Assembly: GCF_002155965.1 (NCBI RefSeq)
Contig: NZ_MUMH01000080.1
Coordinates: forward strand, 589 to 45,452
DNA length: 44,864 bases
Direction: 5' to 3'
Origin: Allokutzneria sp. NRRL B-24872
GTDB taxonomy: Bacteria; Actinomycetota; Actinomycetes; Mycobacteriales; Pseudonocardiaceae
Made by a program: the position numbers and the translations under genes. Positions 3,113 through 44,864 of this stretch are shown one piece after another (within the stretch, counting starts at the first letter, position 1; each line of letters starts with the position of its first letter). Below the pieces are notes generated by a model that was given only the letters and a program-made list of their open reading frames with translations, ran no database searches and had not been told where the DNA came from.

Positions 3113-4275
3113 GGCGGGTTCACCTCCCTCGCCCTCAGCAGGTCGGCGAGCAGGGACTGGCCGGAGGACCACCCGCTGCCGCACTGCCAGGCGGGCACGA
3201 ACCTGGCCCGCTCGTCGATGCGGGTGAGGGTGCCGATAGCCGCCAAACGACGCCGTCCGTCGGGTTCGCGCTTCATGTGCAGCACCACCTGGATCGCCGC
3301 GCTGAGCTGGCTGTGCAGGGCGTCTCGGGACAGTCCGCCGAGAGCGGCGAGTGCTTCCATGCGCGCCGGGACATCCGCCGGAGAGTTCGCGTGCACGGTG
3401 CCCGCACCGCCGTCATGGCCGGTGTTCAGCGCCGCGAGCAGCTCGCACACCTCCGCGCCGCGCACCTCTCCCACCACCAGGCGGTCGGGGCGCATGCGCA
3501 GGGCCTGCCGGACGAGCTGGCGCAGTGCGATCTCACCTGCGCCCTCGACATTGGGCGGGCGGGCCACGAGCCGCACCACGTGCGGGTGTCCCGGCCGCAG
3601 CTCCGCGGCTTCCTCGACGCTGACGATCCGCTCGTCGGCAGGAACGCAGCCGAGCATCGCGGCCAGCAGGGTCGTCTTGCCGGAACCGGTGTTGCCGACC
3701 ACGAGGAAGGCCAACCGTGCCGCGACCAACGCCTTGAGCACCGCCGTCATCTCGCGGTCGAAGGTCTTGAGGCGGCGCAGGGCGTCCAGGTCGTGCGTTG
3801 CCGGGCGCAGCACGCGAAGCGACACACAGGTGCCGTCGGCGGCGATCGGTGCGAGCACGGCGTGCAACCGGACGTTGCCCCCGGCACCGCACTCGGGGAG
3901 CCAACCGTCCACATAGGGCTGCGCGTCGTCGAGCCTCCGCCCGGCCGCGAGCGCGAGCCGTTGTGCCAGTCGCCGCACGGATTCCTCGTCCGGCAGGTCG
4001 ACCCGGGCCTCGCGCAGCCCTCGCCCCTGGTCCACCCAGACCTTGCCCGGTCCGGCCACCAGGACGTCCGTGGTCGCGGGGTCGCGCAGCAGTGGTTCGA
4101 GCGGCCCCGCACCAACGAATTCCTGATGCAGCAAGCGAATCGTGTGCAGCAGCGTGGCGTCGCCGATGACTCCCCCGGCCTCGGCGCGGACCGCGTCAGC
4201 GACCGCCCCCGCTGTCACCGGCCCGGTGGTGGCCGCGATCCGGTGCCGGACGCGGTCGGCCAGGTCCTCGCTCAT
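3082..4275 (-). CDS. tadA: TadA/CpaF-family secretion ATPase
   Basis: A 397-residue type II/IV secretion ATPase. An N-terminal domain (GPLEPLLRDPATTDVLVAGP, then VDQGRGLREARV) precedes the nucleotide-binding core: Walker A GNTGSGKTT with the lysine at about residue 200, an acidic Asp/Glu box (IVSVEEAAELRP), Walker B region (MRPDRLVVGEVRGAE) and His box (GTVHANSPADVPARMEAL). It powers pilus extension through the TadB/TadC platform. The ATG at 4275 overlaps the ssd stop (ATGA), so ssd and tadA are translationally coupled. Residues SVEEAAEL and GEVRGAEV mark this as the actinobacterial CpaF-like subfamily found beside an Ssd homologue. Confidence 0.93.
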   Translation of the reverse strand: MSEDLADRVRHRIAATTGPVTAGAVADAVRAEAGGVIGDATLLHTIRLLHQEFVGAGPLEPLLRDPATTDVLVAGPGKVWVDQGRGLREARVDLPDEESVRRLAQRLALAAGRRLDDAQPYVDGWLPECGAGGNVRLHAVLAPIAADGTCVSLRVLRPATHDLDALRRLKTFDREMTAVLKALVAARLAFLVVGNTGSGKTTLLAAMLGCVPADERIVSVEEAAELRPGHPHVVRLVARPPNVEGAGEIALRQLVRQALRMRPDRLVVGEVRGAEVCELLAALNTGHDGGAGTVHANSPADVPARMEALAALGGLSRDALHSQLSAAIQVVLHMKREPDGRRRLAAIGTLTRIDERARFVPAWQCGSGWSSGQSLLADLLRAREVNPPWSLPLSSSR

Positions 4276-5345
4276 CGCGATCCGCCCCCGCGCAACACGT
4301 CGAGCACCTGCCCCGCTGCCTCGGCGAGCGGCCCCTTGGCCTGCGCCGGGGCATGGCCGTTGTCGAGCTCGCGGTCGATGCCCGGCTCCGGGCGCATCGT
4401 CGTGAGCAGGGGCAGGGCGAGGGAGCGCCCCACGTCTTCGGCCTGCAGCCCGCCCGGAGCCGGGCCCCGGACCACGACCTGCAGCGCCGTCCCTCGGCTC
4501 AGCGCCCGCTCCGCGACACGGGAGGCCGCCGCGCAGGCGCGGACCTCGGCGGGTACGACGAGCACCGCCAGGTCGGCCAGGTCGAGCGCGGTGAGCGCGG
4601 CGTCGGGCAGGTGCCGGGGCAGGTCGCACACCACGACCCCGCCGCCACGGCGGCCCGCCGACACCACCGCCTCCACCGCTGCCGGTTCCGGACCGGTGCC
4701 GTCCCGATCGCAGGACAGCACGGTGAGGCCACCTCCCCGCACATCGGCGGTGGGCAACGCGGATCGCAGCGAGGACGGCGACATCCGGCCGCGCGTCGGG
4801 GTCAGCCCGGGCCAGCGCAGACCCTCCGTGTGCTCGGCGCCGAGCATCAGGTCCAGGCCGCCGCCGAACGGATCGCAGTCCACCAGCAGCACCTGCTCGC
4901 CCCTGCGGAGCGCGACCACCGAGACCGCGCAGGCCAGCACCGACGCCCCCGCGCCGCCTCTGCCGCCGATCACCGCGAGCACGCGGCCCGCATCCGATGC
5001 CGAGCCTTCCGCGACGTCGGCGAGCGTCGCGGTCAGCCACTCCTCGGCCTCCGGGAGGGAGAGGACCTTGTGCACTCCCAGTTCGACCGCCTGCCGCCAC
5101 ATCACCGGGTCGGGTTCGGTCGTCGTCAGCACCACGATGTCGGCCCGGCGCGGCAGATCCGCGGCGGCGCAGCTCCGCAGGCCGGAGTCGTCGAGCAGCA
5201 CCAGCGGGGCGGTCGCCCAGTGCCGCCGCGCCGCGGCGGGATCGGGCACCCGGTGCACGTCGCAGCCCGCGGCCGCGGCCAGCCGCAGTGCCTCGTCGAG
5301 GAGTTCGGTGTCCTCCATCAACACCAGAGGTCGTGCCGTTTCCAC
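4272..5345 (-). CDS. ssd: Septum-site-determining protein Ssd / CpaE-like ATPase
   Basis: A 357-residue protein of the actinobacterial CpaE-like family (M. tuberculosis Rv3660c). Residues 1-115 resemble a receiver-like domain without a clear phosphorylation site. From about residue 120 there is a MinD/ParA-type P-loop domain: GGRGGAGAS at 127-135, LLVDCDPFGGGLDL, and VVVCDLPRHLPDAALTALDLADLAVLVV. The P-loop lacks the usual lysine of KGGxGKT, as seen in this family, so canonical ATPase activity is doubtful. In Caulobacter CpaE positions the pilus machinery; in mycobacteria Ssd overexpression affects septation. The GTG start at 5345 follows GGGGAG with ideal spacing; a longer frame to 5855 is Arg/Pro-rich and not conserved. 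It is the first gene of the Tad operon. Confidence 0.85.
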   Translation of the reverse strand: METARPLVLMEDTELLDEALRLAAAAGCDVHRVPDPAAARRHWATAPLVLLDDSGLRSCAAADLPRRADIVVLTTTEPDPVMWRQAVELGVHKVLSLPEAEEWLTATLADVAEGSASDAGRVLAVIGGRGGAGASVLACAVSVVALRRGEQVLLVDCDPFGGGLDLMLGAEHTEGLRWPGLTPTRGRMSPSSLRSALPTADVRGGGLTVLSCDRDGTGPEPAAVEAVVSAGRRGGGVVVCDLPRHLPDAALTALDLADLAVLVVPAEVRACAAASRVAERALSRGTALQVVVRGPAPGGLQAEDVGRSLALPLLTTMRPEPGIDRELDNGHAPAQAKGPLAEAAGQVLDVLRGGGSR

Positions 5346-5817
5346 TGTCTCCCCCTGCCGTTCGCGTCCCGCCGGTGCGGGTTCCGGTGGTCGTTCCACC
5401 GTCGCTCGGGGCCGGGTCGGGTGCCATGGGGTCTCGGCGATCTGTGGACAACGGGCGCGTTGTGGACAACTCGGCCGCACCTGGTGGTCTTCGCGGCGGA
5501 AATGTCGGTGCCGCAGGGAAGAATTGAAAGTGGGGGGCTCCCCCACGCGCGCGCGATTGACCGCGCCGAGGCGTGGAGGAGGCCGTGGATCGGGCGGTGG
5601 TGGAGCTGAGCGGATGTGCGGCGGTGGCCTGAACCGGCCAGCGGTTCGGCATCGGCGCTCGCGGTGTGAACCCCGGGTGAAACCGTTCTGCGGCACCGAG
5701 CTTCGGCTTCGGCGGTGCACGCGGCGACGCGAGCCGGTCACGCACAACGTTGGCGTAGAACGTTTCAAGGACGTGAGAAGCGTTCTGAAGACCGGTCGAA
5801 AACGGGTCCGGACATGG
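5346..5817. other. Non-coding leader region of the ssd-tad operon
   Basis: About 470 bases with no convincing gene lie between the ssd start and the 6C RNA. Besides two DnaA-box-like sites (listed separately) there is a 7-bp hairpin with a 3-base loop at 5530-5546 (GTGGGGG/CCCCCAC), and a 10-bp inverted repeat with a 10-bp spacer at 5757-5766 and 5777-5786 (AGAACGTTTC / GAAGCGTTCT, one mismatch), which could be an operator. All forward and reverse reading frames here are Arg/Pro/Gly-rich extensions of genes in other frames. The ssd promoter must lie in this stretch, or transcription must read through from the 6C RNA. Confidence 0.5.
5443..5469 (-). promoter_or_regulatory. Pair of DnaA-box-like sites upstream of ssd
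   Basis: TGTGGACAA occurs at 5443-5451 and again at 5461-5469, the same orientation, starts 18 bp apart. On the minus strand both read TTGTCCACA, which is the high-GC actinobacterial form of the DnaA box (TTATCCACA in E. coli). They lie about 100-125 bases before the ssd start. Two perfect copies in 27 bp are unlikely by chance, but DnaA binding is inferred only from the sequence. Confidence 0.5.
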
Positions 5818-5905
5818 GACGACCCCCGCCAGGGGGGAGGGACGGGGGTCGTCATAGGTTCAGTCCCGGGGGGTCGGACTGAACCCGTCCGGCACAGCCG
5901 GACGT
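5818..5905 (-). ncRNA. 6C RNA (B11-like small RNA)
   Basis: Read on the minus strand, the RNA has a 5' hairpin (8-bp stem 5886-5893/5897-5904, 3-base loop), then two perfect stem-loops: 5876-5885 with 5857-5866 (10 bp) and 5843-5853 with 5818-5828 (11 bp). Each of these two loops carries exactly six consecutive C (complement of G5868-5873 and G5832-5837). Two stem-loops with six-C loops define the actinobacterial 6C RNA, which is known to lie near pilus-assembly and partitioning-like genes. In M. tuberculosis the 6C RNA B11 lies on the minus strand between Rv3660c (ssd) and Rv3661 (HAD), the same context as here. C-rich loops of 6C RNAs are thought to pair with G-rich ribosome binding sites. 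Ends are approximate; the 3' end may extend to the TTTT near 5793-5796. Confidence 0.88.
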
Positions 5906-5909
5906 GACT

Positions 5910-5915
5910 ACTGTA
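5910..5915 (-). promoter_or_regulatory. -10 box of the 6C RNA promoter
   Basis: On the minus strand TACAGT occupies 5915-5910, fitting the actinobacterial TAnnnT -10 consensus and placing the transcription start at about 5903-5905, exactly at the base of the first hairpin. No clear -35 hexamer is visible at the usual distance (5938-5933 reads GGCAAC). Confidence 0.55.
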
Positions 5916-6004
5916 TCCCCCCGCAACCAGAAGTTGCCTCTCGTCCGTTCGAGCGACAGGTGACGATTCGGCACCGGTGCCGCAACGAGACCTATGCTGA
6001 GCCC

Positions 6005-6859
6005 GTGATCGTTCCTGGTGAGAGCGTGCGAAAGACGGAAAAGACCCGGGTCGCGGCGTTCTTCGACCTCGACAAGACCGTCATCGCCAAATCGAGCACG
6101 CTGGCCTTCAGCAGGCCCTTCTTCCAGGAGGGGTTGATCAACCGGCGCGCGGTGCTGAAGAGCGCCTACGCCCAGTTCATGTTCATGCTCGCCGGGGCGG
6201 ACGCGGACCAGACCGAGCGCATGCGCGAGCACCTGACCTCGCTCTGCACCGGTTGGGACGTCGAACAGGTGCGCGCGATCGTGGACGAGACGCTGCACGA
6301 CATCGTCAACCCACTGGTCTACTCCGAGGCCGCCGAGCTCATCGCCGACCACAAGACCGAGGGCCACGATGTGATCGTCGTCTCTGCCTCCGGCGCGGAG
6401 ATCGTCCAGCCGATCGCGGAGATGGTCGGCGCCACCCGCAGCGTCGGCACCCGGATGGTCTCGGCCGAGGGCCGCTACACCGGCGAGGTCGACTTCTACT
6501 GCTACGGCGAGAACAAGGTCGTCGCGGCGCGGGAGCTGGCCGAGGCGGGCGGCTACGACCTGGCCGACTGCTACGCCTACTCCGACTCCATCACCGACCT
6601 GCCGCTGCTGGAGGCGGTCGGCCACCCCACGGCGGTGAACCCGGACCGGTCGCTGCGCAAGGTCGCCTCGCAGCGGGGGTGGCCGGTGCTCACCTTCTCC
6701 GACCCGGTCTCGCTCCGCTCGCGCATCCCGAGCCCTTCCGGCACGGCGGTCGCGGCGGCAGCGGTGGGACTCGGTGTCATGGCGGCGGCGGGAGTCGCTT
6801 TCTACGGCCTCCGCCGACACCAGCGACGGGCCAAAGGGCAAGAGGAACAGGGCGACTGA
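6005..6859 (+). CDS. HAD-superfamily IB hydrolase (SerB-like, Rv3661-type)
   Basis: A 284-residue phosphatase-like protein. The HAD motif I is FFDLDKTV with nucleophile Asp21 and acid/base Asp23; motif II is VIVVSASGAEIV (Ser); motif III is the lysine in YGENKVVAARE followed by YAYSDSITDLPLLE. It belongs to the HAD-IB group with phosphoserine phosphatase. A C-terminal hydrophobic segment (about residues 245-270) followed by RRHQRRAK suggests a membrane anchor with the catalytic domain in the cytoplasm. The chosen GTG start has no ribosome binding site, but TATGCT at 5993-5998 ends six bases before it, predicting a leaderless mRNA. A second GTG lies at 6026. The gene sits between the 6C RNA and the Ms1-like RNA; its substrate is unknown. 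Confidence 0.88.
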   Translation: MIVPGESVRKTEKTRVAAFFDLDKTVIAKSSTLAFSRPFFQEGLINRRAVLKSAYAQFMFMLAGADADQTERMREHLTSLCTGWDVEQVRAIVDETLHDIVNPLVYSEAAELIADHKTEGHDVIVVSASGAEIVQPIAEMVGATRSVGTRMVSAEGRYTGEVDFYCYGENKVVAARELAEAGGYDLADCYAYSDSITDLPLLEAVGHPTAVNPDRSLRKVASQRGWPVLTFSDPVSLRSRIPSPSGTAVAAAAVGLGVMAAAGVAFYGLRRHQRRAKGQEEQGD

Positions 6860-6959
6860 ACCTGTTAGGGCTAGCGGGTTCCAGCCGAAGGCGCAGCCCT
6901 ACTGACGGGTTGCCCCGGGGCGTGTCGACCTTGCTGAAACGGTGCACCCGTCCGTGCCC

Positions 6960-6988
6960 TTGCTGTGACGCCAATCACGGACTACAAA
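6960..6988 (+). promoter_or_regulatory. Promoter of the Ms1-like RNA
   Basis: TTGCTG at 6960-6965 and TACAAA at 6983-6988 are separated by exactly 17 bp, a good housekeeping-sigma promoter. Transcription would start near 6995. There is no open reading frame with a ribosome binding site directly downstream, which supports a non-coding product. Confidence 0.6.
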
Positions 6989-6994
6989 GGGAAG

Positions 6995-7242
6995 TGCGGA
7001 CCGGCAGAGGCCAGGGGCGATACGAAGAGAAGTACCGCTCACCCCCTGTCGCTCCGTGCGAGGAGATTGGGAACCCACGCGCAGCACGCCGCGGGAGGCA
7101 TGTCGTCGAAGGACTGCGTATCAGGACGCTGGACGCCGAGTCCTCACCAGGTACGACACGAGATGCACGCTTGGTACCCCGATCCTCCTCGCTGATGGGG
7201 CGGCGCCCTCGACGAAAGTCGACGGGCGCCGTCCCCTTTTTC
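6995..7242 (+). ncRNA. Ms1-like (6S-like) small RNA, by position and structure
   Basis: A unit of about 250 bases runs from a good promoter to a strong intrinsic terminator and contains no credible gene. It lies directly downstream of the Rv3661 homologue, on the same strand. In mycobacteria the abundant RNA Ms1 (MTS2823 in M. tuberculosis), which binds RNA polymerase core, is encoded at exactly this place, and Streptomyces has a homologue at the corresponding locus. Locally the RNA can fold: CAGGGG near 7012-7017 pairs with the CCCCTG near 7045, and GGACT near 7109 pairs with AGTCC near 7140. The identification rests mainly on synteny, promoter and terminator; I could not align it to Ms1. 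Ms1 in mycobacteria is about 300 nt, slightly longer. Confidence 0.68.
7197..7241 (+). terminator. Intrinsic terminator of the Ms1-like RNA
   Basis: GGGGCGGCGCCCTCGAC (7197-7213) pairs with 7218-7236 across a GAAA tetraloop, forming 17 base pairs with two single-base bulges (7223 and 7232), followed by TTTTT at 7237-7241. It is the most canonical rho-independent terminator in the window. Confidence 0.9.
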
Positions 7243-7398
7243 CGTGCCACCCTTCGGCCCCTGCCACACAGGGTGGGCACCCCGATACCGTTCGTGAAAG
7301 CCTGCAGCCACTGCGCCAGATGAACCAGTGCTGGGATCGGATTGTTCGGCAAGCGGGTGACCAGGGCACATGAGTTCGTTGCAGCCCCGTCACGCGCG

Positions 7399-26749: not shown

Positions 26750-26925
26750 AGGACTTTTAACAGACCGGTCGGTCGACTGATCGGTTTCAACCGGCGAGCC
26801 GAACAGATCCTTGCCCAAGACGGCCTAGACTGCTCGCCAGTGATCGGCGGCACGTGGCCGAAGACCGCATTCCTGCGGTACTGGCCGCTCACGTGAACCG
26901 TCGCGTCTCAACATGGAGGGACGAG

Positions 26926-27600
26926 GTGGACGAGACCCTGGCCCGGGCGGGCATCTTCCAGGGCGTTGAACCGGCAGCCGCCGAGGCGCTCGTTTCCACG
27001 CTGGAGCAGGTGGACTTCCCGCGTGGACACGTGATCTTCGCGGAGGGTGAGCCGGGCGACCGGCTGTACATCATCCAGTCGGGCAAGGTGAAGGTCGGCC
27101 GGAAGTCACCGGACGGCCGGGAGAACCTGCTGTCCATCATGGGTCCTTCGGACATGTTCGGTGAGCTGTCCATCTTCGACCCCGGCCCCAGGACCTCCAC
27201 CGCGACCACGGTGACCGAGGTGCGGGCGCTCACGATGGACCGGCCCAGCCTGCGCGAGTGGATCGGCAAGCGGCCGGAGATCGCCGAGCAGCTGCTGCGG
27301 GTGCTCGCGCGACGGCTGCGCCGCACGAACAACATGCTCGCCGACCTGATCTTCACCGACGTCCCGGGCCGGGTGGCGCGCGCGCTGCTGCAGTTCGCCC
27401 AGCGCTTCGGGTCGCAGGAGGCGGGTCTGCTGCGGGTCACCCACGACCTGACCCAGGAGGAGATCGCCCAGTACGTCGGCGCCTCCCGGGAGACCGTGAA
27501 CAAGGCGCTCGCCGACTTCGCGCACCGCGGCTGGCTGCGGCTGGAGGGCAAGAGCGTGCTGATCCTGGACCCGGAGCGGCTGGCCCGCCGGGCGCGCTAG
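26926..27600 (+). CDS. crp: Cyclic AMP receptor protein Crp (Rv3676-type)
   Basis: A 224-residue regulator, the same length as M. tuberculosis Crp. The cNMP-binding domain contains [20 protein letters not shown] and the phosphate-binding cassette [19 protein letters not shown]; after the C-helix ([16 protein letters not shown]) the winged-helix domain has the recognition helix in [20 protein letters not shown]. It is a global regulator of carbon and redox genes. GTG at 26926 follows GGAGG with six bases between; the upstream frame to 26854 is not conserved. A -10 box TAGACT at 26826-26831 would start the mRNA near 26838. Followed by a strong terminator. Confidence 0.95.

Positions 27601-44798: not shown

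Positions 44799-44864
<66 letters not shown>

Follow-up and report, generated by a model that had tools for sequence, protein, structure and literature searches.

Three probable transcription units at the 6C-HAD-Ms1 locus of an Allokutzneria strain and a putative CRP-type site in the Ms1 promoter

Is a HAD-IB phosphatase gene that lies between two small RNAs, 6C and Ms1, functionally bound to either of them, and what might control Ms1? In both M. smegmatis and S. coelicolor, Ms1 binds core RNA polymerase lacking the main sigma factor and is abundant in stationary phase (PMC4191392, PMC9130861); in M. smegmatis its level then goes up about 130-fold (PMC4191392). B11, a member of the 6C family, base-pairs with ribosome-binding sites that are rich in G (PMC10470900). 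Here we analyse a stretch of 44,864 nucleotides from Allokutzneria sp. NRRL B-24872 (the window), in which a first-pass annotation had read the arrangement 6C-HAD-Ms1 as a regulatory island conserved beyond mycobacteria, and had suggested that the phosphatase may have a functional tie to one of the RNAs.

The main claim of that annotation was already known, since the order has been published. The position of 6C relative to Ms1, with a single gene between, was described as conserved between mycobacteria and S. coelicolor in 2019 (PMC6582537), and the same placement is given for mycobacteria in PMC9569102. SCO3558 was reported in 2021 to be flanked by scr3558 (6C) and scr3559 (PMC8539372). In 2022 Ms1 was reported in 824 species of 146 genera, including Saccharothrix, Lentzea and Saccharopolyspora, in a paper with a section on Ms1-HAD linkage in many Actinobacteria (PMC9130861), in the accessible text of which the 6C RNA is not mentioned by that name.

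Identity and reach of the three units

The features of the locus are collected in Table 1. The Rfam search of the region upstream of the phosphatase gene, which had been proposed along with the reading of a minus-strand 6C RNA there, gave a match to RF01066 at 5888-5814 of 75.1 bits, above the gathering score of 47 (E 3.5e-8). Match and fold both confirm two stem-loops with a run of six C in each loop, and none of 200 shuffled sequences folds as stably (z -5.95). Our own 6C model, R2, of which the window sequence is itself a part, scores this copy at 94.7 bits. Moreover, a third hairpin on the 5' side, absent from the first-pass annotation, also folds at 5886-5904. The 5' end would be placed by the position of the -10 box; the same hexamer, TACAGT, stands in the corresponding stretch of 48 of 79 loci, window included, among the best-80 set described below, and by eye no good -35 hexamer was seen in the window's relatives.

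Table 1. Positions of the features discussed, in window coordinates
Feature	Position	Strand	Basis
6C RNA (B11/scr3558 family)	5812-5904	minus	Rfam core 5814-5888, two C6-loop hairpins, plus 5' hairpin 5886-5904
6C promoter, -10 box TACAGT	5910-5915	minus	sequence
Possible HAD -10 box TATGCT	5993-5998	plus	window sequence
HAD-IB phosphatase gene (Rv3661/SCO3558 type)	6005-6859	plus	PF12710, E 7e-33; tblastn relatives
Ms1 promoter	6960-6988	plus	-35 TTGCTG 6960-6965, 17-base spacer, -10 TACAAA 6983-6988
CRP-type dyad in Ms1 promoter, TGTGACGCCAATCACG	6964-6979	plus	GTG-N8-CAC, within the 17-base spacer region
Ms1 RNA, core-RNA-polymerase-binding RNA (Ms1/MTS2823/scr3559 family)	6995-7246	plus	RF02566, covariation, fold
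Ms1 intrinsic terminator, hairpin and T run	about 7197-7241	plus	sequence, fold
Gene orthologous to M. tuberculosis CRP, candidate Ms1 regulator	26854-27600	plus	PF13545, PDB matches

PafBC-type promoters follow the RecA-NDp consensus TTGTCRGTG-N8-TANNNT. The stretch upstream of 6C in the window scores 9 of 12 positions against it, a weak likeness. A DNA-damage promoter of this type at 6C was rejected: 12 of 165 upstream stretches reach at least 9 of 12, compared with 4.4% of shuffles, and the set as a whole barely exceeds chance.

The phosphatase gene opens with a GTG codon at 6005 and closes with a stop at 6859, and the C-terminal segment of its product appears hydrophobic by eye. With the possible -10 box directly ahead of the GTG, the HAD mRNA would be leaderless. 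At the far end of the window a tRNA gene (44799-44864) is cut by the window end.

Downstream of the phosphatase gene the first-pass annotation had described a promoter with a spacing of 17 bases, a unit of about 250 bases without a gene, and a terminator. All three hold. The promoter is TTGCTG-17-TACAAA, its -10 box ending six bases ahead of 6995; the terminator is a hairpin followed by a T run; and the unit, whose first base lies beyond the HAD stop codon, is Ms1, with a match to RF02566 that covers model positions 1-304 of 304 at 73.5 bits (E 4.2e-18). This score is below the gathering score of 162, which is why the default Rfam scan, too strict for Ms1, missed the RNA; a scan by E-value was used in its place. 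According to PMC9130861, Rfam gives Ms1 candidates only from species near mycobacteria, and the 824 homologs of that study were located through synteny and similarity.

The fold of Ms1 is also more stable than expected (z -4.64; none of 200 shuffles equally stable). Covariance support for paired stems, whose absence would have spoken against the first-pass annotation by its own account, was found in an alignment of 29 sequences, the window and 28 relatives. Changes on both sides occur in 21 of 49 pairs, where shuffles give 11.4 +- 1.7. The covariation score of 0.240 compares with 0.133 for shuffles (0 of 500 as high) and with values no higher than 0.075 for slid structures; over these slid versions the structure has an advantage, since RNAalifold derived it as the consensus of this very alignment. 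In the closing stem, helices 4 and 5, seven of nine pairs show such changes. Ms1 thus has conserved pairing, closed by a long helix.

The order itself extends well beyond mycobacteria, as had been proposed. A HAD search gave at least 485 confirmed loci, of which the best 80, mostly from Pseudonocardiaceae, Rhodococcus and Nocardia, were kept. Among these best 80, model R2 places 6C on the minus strand, divergent and upstream of HAD, in 78 (the exceptions are L095 and L108), and our model of the Ms1 core, R1, places Ms1 on the plus strand downstream of HAD in 79; in the remaining locus (L060) the contig stops about 320 bases past the HAD match. Both models were built partly from loci later matched, so some of these matches arise partly by construction. 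An independent check of nine loci with the Rfam models found 6C in all nine and Ms1 in five (E up to 0.1). Furthermore, Ms1 was matched in 57 of 60 genomes of the window's family, and the complete order recurs in 47 of the 148 genomes of the class draw considered next. In one genome of the draw from the window's family (G256) two Ms1 matches were found, on contigs C20 and C46; PMC9569102 describes second Ms1 copies in some mycobacteria and in Rhodococcus.

Separability of the phosphatase and the two RNAs

Among 148 genomes drawn from the class, and counted without correction for kinship, 6C is found in 88, a HAD ortholog in 92 and Ms1 in 81. These counts combine whole-genome matches with local matches in the stretches around the loci; six Ms1 entries come solely from local matches, one of them weak (L214, E 0.006), and one 6C entry (G089, 40.7 bits), 2 Mb away from HAD, is possibly spurious. 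The cut-off for a HAD ortholog, more than 200 bits plus one fragment at a contig end (G060), was our own choice. Where a part seems absent, a divergent copy may have been missed or the draft may have a gap.

All three parts occur in 51 of the 148 genomes, 47 of them with the parts in order on a single contig; in the other four the parts are split across contigs (three genomes) or the 6C match is distant and weak (one). Pairs are also found: 6C with Ms1 and no HAD ortholog in 14 genomes, 6C with HAD and no detected Ms1 in 18, HAD with Ms1 and no detected 6C in 14. Single parts remain in further genomes, HAD in nine, 6C in five and Ms1 in two, and in total the HAD ortholog occurs without detected Ms1 in 27 of 148 genomes and without detected 6C in 23. 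Where the order is intact, the gap between HAD and the Ms1 core is below 300 bases in 38 of 47 genomes and 1.3-3.1 kb in nine, in two of which Ms1 is reversed.

The 14 genomes that have both RNAs and no HAD ortholog belong to families f8, f15, f16, f30 and f36. In every one of them 6C and the Ms1 core are separated by 152-408 bases, and the two RNAs are divergent in 13 and on the same strand in one (G042); the Ms1 match of one genome, G006, is weak (E 0.006). A tblastn search with HAD over 19 HAD-less 6C loci, these 14 and five further ones, returned a best E of only 0.31. Family f15 has HAD and 6C in six genomes and 6C and Ms1 in two, a mixture which means either that loss happened more than once or that Ms1 went undetected in some. 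We found no mention of HAD-less 6C-Ms1 pairs in the accessible passages of PMC6582537, PMC9569102, PMC8539372 and PMC9130861.

Two arrangements stand apart. In one genome (G047, locus L194) 6C, at 3332-3410, lies on the same strand as HAD and just upstream of it (about 3501-4286); elsewhere adjacent 6C and HAD are divergent (63 of 64 pairs). In G042 (L219), which has no HAD ortholog, Ms1 lies upstream of 6C, possibly through a local inversion.

These counts bear on whether selection holds the locus together. A functional HAD-Ms1 module has been the subject of speculation in PMC9130861; in such a scheme the phosphatase would act with one of the RNAs, Ms1 for example being tuned with cell size, and selection would keep the three together. 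The long-lived adjacency across many families and the divergence of 63 of 64 adjacent 6C-HAD pairs fit this scheme, but each of the parts turns up in many genomes that lack the others, HAD and Ms1 are 1.5-3.1 kb apart in family f19, and the RNAs stay neighbours in 14 of 14 genomes that have no HAD ortholog, so that we regard it as improbable. Separate occurrence of each part, together with RNAs adjacent where HAD is absent, argues against an obligatory tie, and in that form the tie of phosphatase to RNA put forward in the first-pass annotation is not supported; a looser functional tie between HAD and one RNA may exist. For the question of a functional link posed in PMC9130861, the HAD-less loci mean that linkage is not obligatory. 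The close spacing of the two RNAs in those genomes, divergent in 13 of them (and counting the weak Ms1 match of G006), could instead mark 6C and Ms1 as the module, kept together through shared control or a supercoiling domain. This seems unlikely to us: a plain deletion of HAD would leave the RNAs adjacent without any selection, each RNA also occurs without the other, and by eye they share no promoter element. We favour three separate transcription units, 6C, HAD and Ms1, which would share an ancestral place on the chromosome and whose order would persist through descent.

A dyad in the Ms1 promoter

The Ms1 promoter layout could be placed in all 80 loci of the best-80 set (the window and 79 relatives), with a spacer of 17 bases in 78, by a looser rule that favours CTTG, a 17-base spacer and a TA..A box and does not score any dyad. 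A sigma-A-like Ms1 promoter has been described (PMC4191392). In the window the dyad scores 9 of 10 against TGTGA-N6-TCACA, and TGTGANNNNNNTCAC occurs once in the window, at the Ms1 promoter (0.19 expected on average by chance; one is present in 14 of 100 shuffles).

Across the 80 loci, information content reaches 1.4-1.9 bits per base in GTG at the edge of the -35 box and in CAC, which follows eleven bases later, compared with 0.1-0.9 for the eight bases between. Among 67 distinct promoters the arm positions are complements of one another in 66, 59 and 60, the flanking outer and inner positions in just 14 and 20, with T..G the commonest outer pair. Conserved, complementary GTG and CAC arms around a variable centre correspond to the core of a CRP/GlxR-type site. 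On average 54 distinct promoters score 7.63 of 10 against TGTGA-N6-TCACA, compared with 4.04 +- 0.13 for shuffled spacers, where the promoters were placed by a stricter pattern that reached 60 of the 80 rows (window and relatives) and 16 of 77 class rows. The 20 rows of the 80 that fall outside this average include many from Lentzea with a poorer right arm. The dyad shuffles take no account of kinship among related sequences.

A fresh draw of the window's family, limited to the best 30 of 58 Ms1 matches, gave 27 distinct promoters, 22 of them previously unseen. Both arms stand at the fixed place in 21 of these 22, where shuffled spacers predict 0.05%, and a perfect AGTGA-N6-TCACT is present in 11 promoters of the draw; rows from Nocardia have a perfect TGTGA-N6-TCACA. 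Within the order, a strict pattern that combines promoter and dyad occurs in 12 of 120 genomes, once in each (in the window's own family in only 2 of 17), the Ms1 match starts 58-64 bases from it in 12 of 12, and the reversed pattern had no match in the 120 genomes. Taken by family, the class draw has the dyad ahead of the -10 box in nine of the 11 f2 genomes (the two without a call score 6) and in 1 of 11 of f24, and it was found in 0 of 11 genomes of f10, f12 and f14 and 0 of 31 of f16, f18 and f19. In the literature searched we found no published account of a dyad in the Ms1 promoter spacer.

The strict pattern also occurs in a viral contig (L230, 12405-12433), perhaps as a CRP-type site in a phage promoter; this contig has no Ms1 match, and a phage-borne Ms1 was rejected.

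Which protein could bind here? The gene at 26854-27600, 20 kb from the Ms1 locus and within the same window, encodes the best PF13545 match of the genome, and its product matches M. tuberculosis CRP (PDB 3i54 and 3d0s) over 227 and 225 residues with E 1e-121. Three further proteins of the genome pass the HTH cut-off, and other CRP/FNR proteins could bind the Ms1 dyad. Repression tends to accompany those CRP sites of M. tuberculosis that lie near start sites (PMC4117774). The accessible text of that paper names a CRP site upstream of ncRv13660c, not of Ms1; ncRv13660c is B11 (6C), and CRP has been called the regulator of B11 (PMC8805019). Between 6C and HAD a CRP motif did not exceed chance, the best score of 8 of 10 being reached in 6 of 75 loci and scores of at least 8 in 3.8% of shuffles. 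PMC3207917, which links CRP to another sRNA, saw no match to a promoter where the start of MTS2823 had been mapped. In the accessible literature that we searched, no published link of Ms1/MTS2823 to CRP or cAMP was found. That the dyad's partner is CRP, the likeliest candidate, and that it represses Ms1, we would put at about even odds.

A different element marks other Ms1 promoters of the class. Of 77 class promoters, 27 carry a GTAAAG-like box at a distance of exactly 44-45 bases ahead of the -10 box, counting any match per row (24 genomes if only the last match per row is taken), compared with a mean of 0.05 and a maximum of 2 in shuffles. These promoters belong to families f7, f9, f16, f18 and f19, at loci L121, L130, L134, L139, L142, L143, L145, L148 and L150, part of L151-L171, and L205-L209, L212 and L215. 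At L203, L205-L209, L212, L215, L216 and some loci of f19 and f24, the distance from the -10 box to the model core downstream is about 16-23 bases, in place of the usual 64 or so, and the Ms1 5' hairpin seems to be missing there.

The dyad could also belong to an extended core promoter, the -35 flank and spacer being contacted by sigma A, RbpA or CarD, with no regulator involved. Its fixed place between the -35 and -10 boxes and the frequent asymmetry of the outer positions would suit such contacts, as would the report that Ms1 was the stationary-phase gene most affected by depletion of CrsL or CarD (one of the two; PMC12709188). Against this stand the complementarity of the GTG and CAC arms in 66, 59 and 60 of 67 promoters around a variable centre, which is partly a consequence of conservation itself, and the perfect AGTGA-N6-TCACT in 11 of the 22 fresh promoters and TGTGA-N6-TCACA in Nocardia, as expected for a dimer site. 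Furthermore, all 31 promoters of f16, f18 and f19 keep a TANAAA box though they are without the dyad. Core-promoter contacts therefore appear a possible but doubtful account of the dyad. The regulator-site reading in its full form, in which Ms1 would be a direct target of a repressor of the cAMP-receptor family through the dyad between -35 and -10, the switch being old in the mycobacterial and pseudonocardial branch, with the GTAAAG element 44-45 bases before the -10 box taking its place elsewhere in the class, seems to us as likely to be right as wrong.

Three units compared with known systems

Taken together, the RNA and protein identities by homology, the structures and the gene order favour, with a probability that we put at roughly 0.8, three independent units in an order kept by descent. 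To these the conserved dyad adds a putative CRP-type control of Ms1, at about even odds. 6C, an sRNA of about 90 bases, would be transcribed away from HAD and, as in mycobacteria, its C-rich loops would pair with G-rich ribosome-binding sites. The phosphatase would form a unit of its own, needed by neither RNA. Ms1, of about 250 bases, would be made from its own sigma-70-type promoter and bind core RNA polymerase free of the main sigma factor. A dimer of the CRP/FNR family, the likeliest being the CRP whose gene lies 20 kb away, would occupy the dyad and block RNA polymerase, so that Ms1 would be low in growth and released once CRP leaves. If this is true, global transcription capacity would be coupled to cAMP signalling through one small RNA. 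The control of Ms1 was left open by PMC4191392, to which a conserved dimer-type promoter site would offer a directly testable answer.

The putative control can be set beside the CRP regulon of M. tuberculosis (PMC4117774), with which the window shares the type of palindrome and an orthologous CRP; the accessible text of that study does not list Ms1/MTS2823 as a target. The 6C RNA of the window has no notable difference from the known family (RF01066; B11, scr3558): it has the two C6-loop hairpins and is divergent from the HAD gene, and like B11 of M. marinum (PMC12395582) it has three hairpins. Ms1 of the window agrees with RF02566, to which MTS2823 of M. tuberculosis and scr3559 of S. coelicolor belong, in its full-length structural match, its place downstream of HAD, and its own sigma-70-type promoter and terminator, whereas its length of about 252 bases, compared with 304 model positions, reflects a shorter middle region, and its score falls under the Rfam cut-off. 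The SCO3558 locus of S. coelicolor (scr3558-SCO3558-scr3559; PMC8539372) has the same three parts in the same order as the window. Unlike the window, family f18, whose 12 genomes are probably Streptomyces-like, has an Ms1 promoter in which a GTAAAG box stands instead of the dyad.
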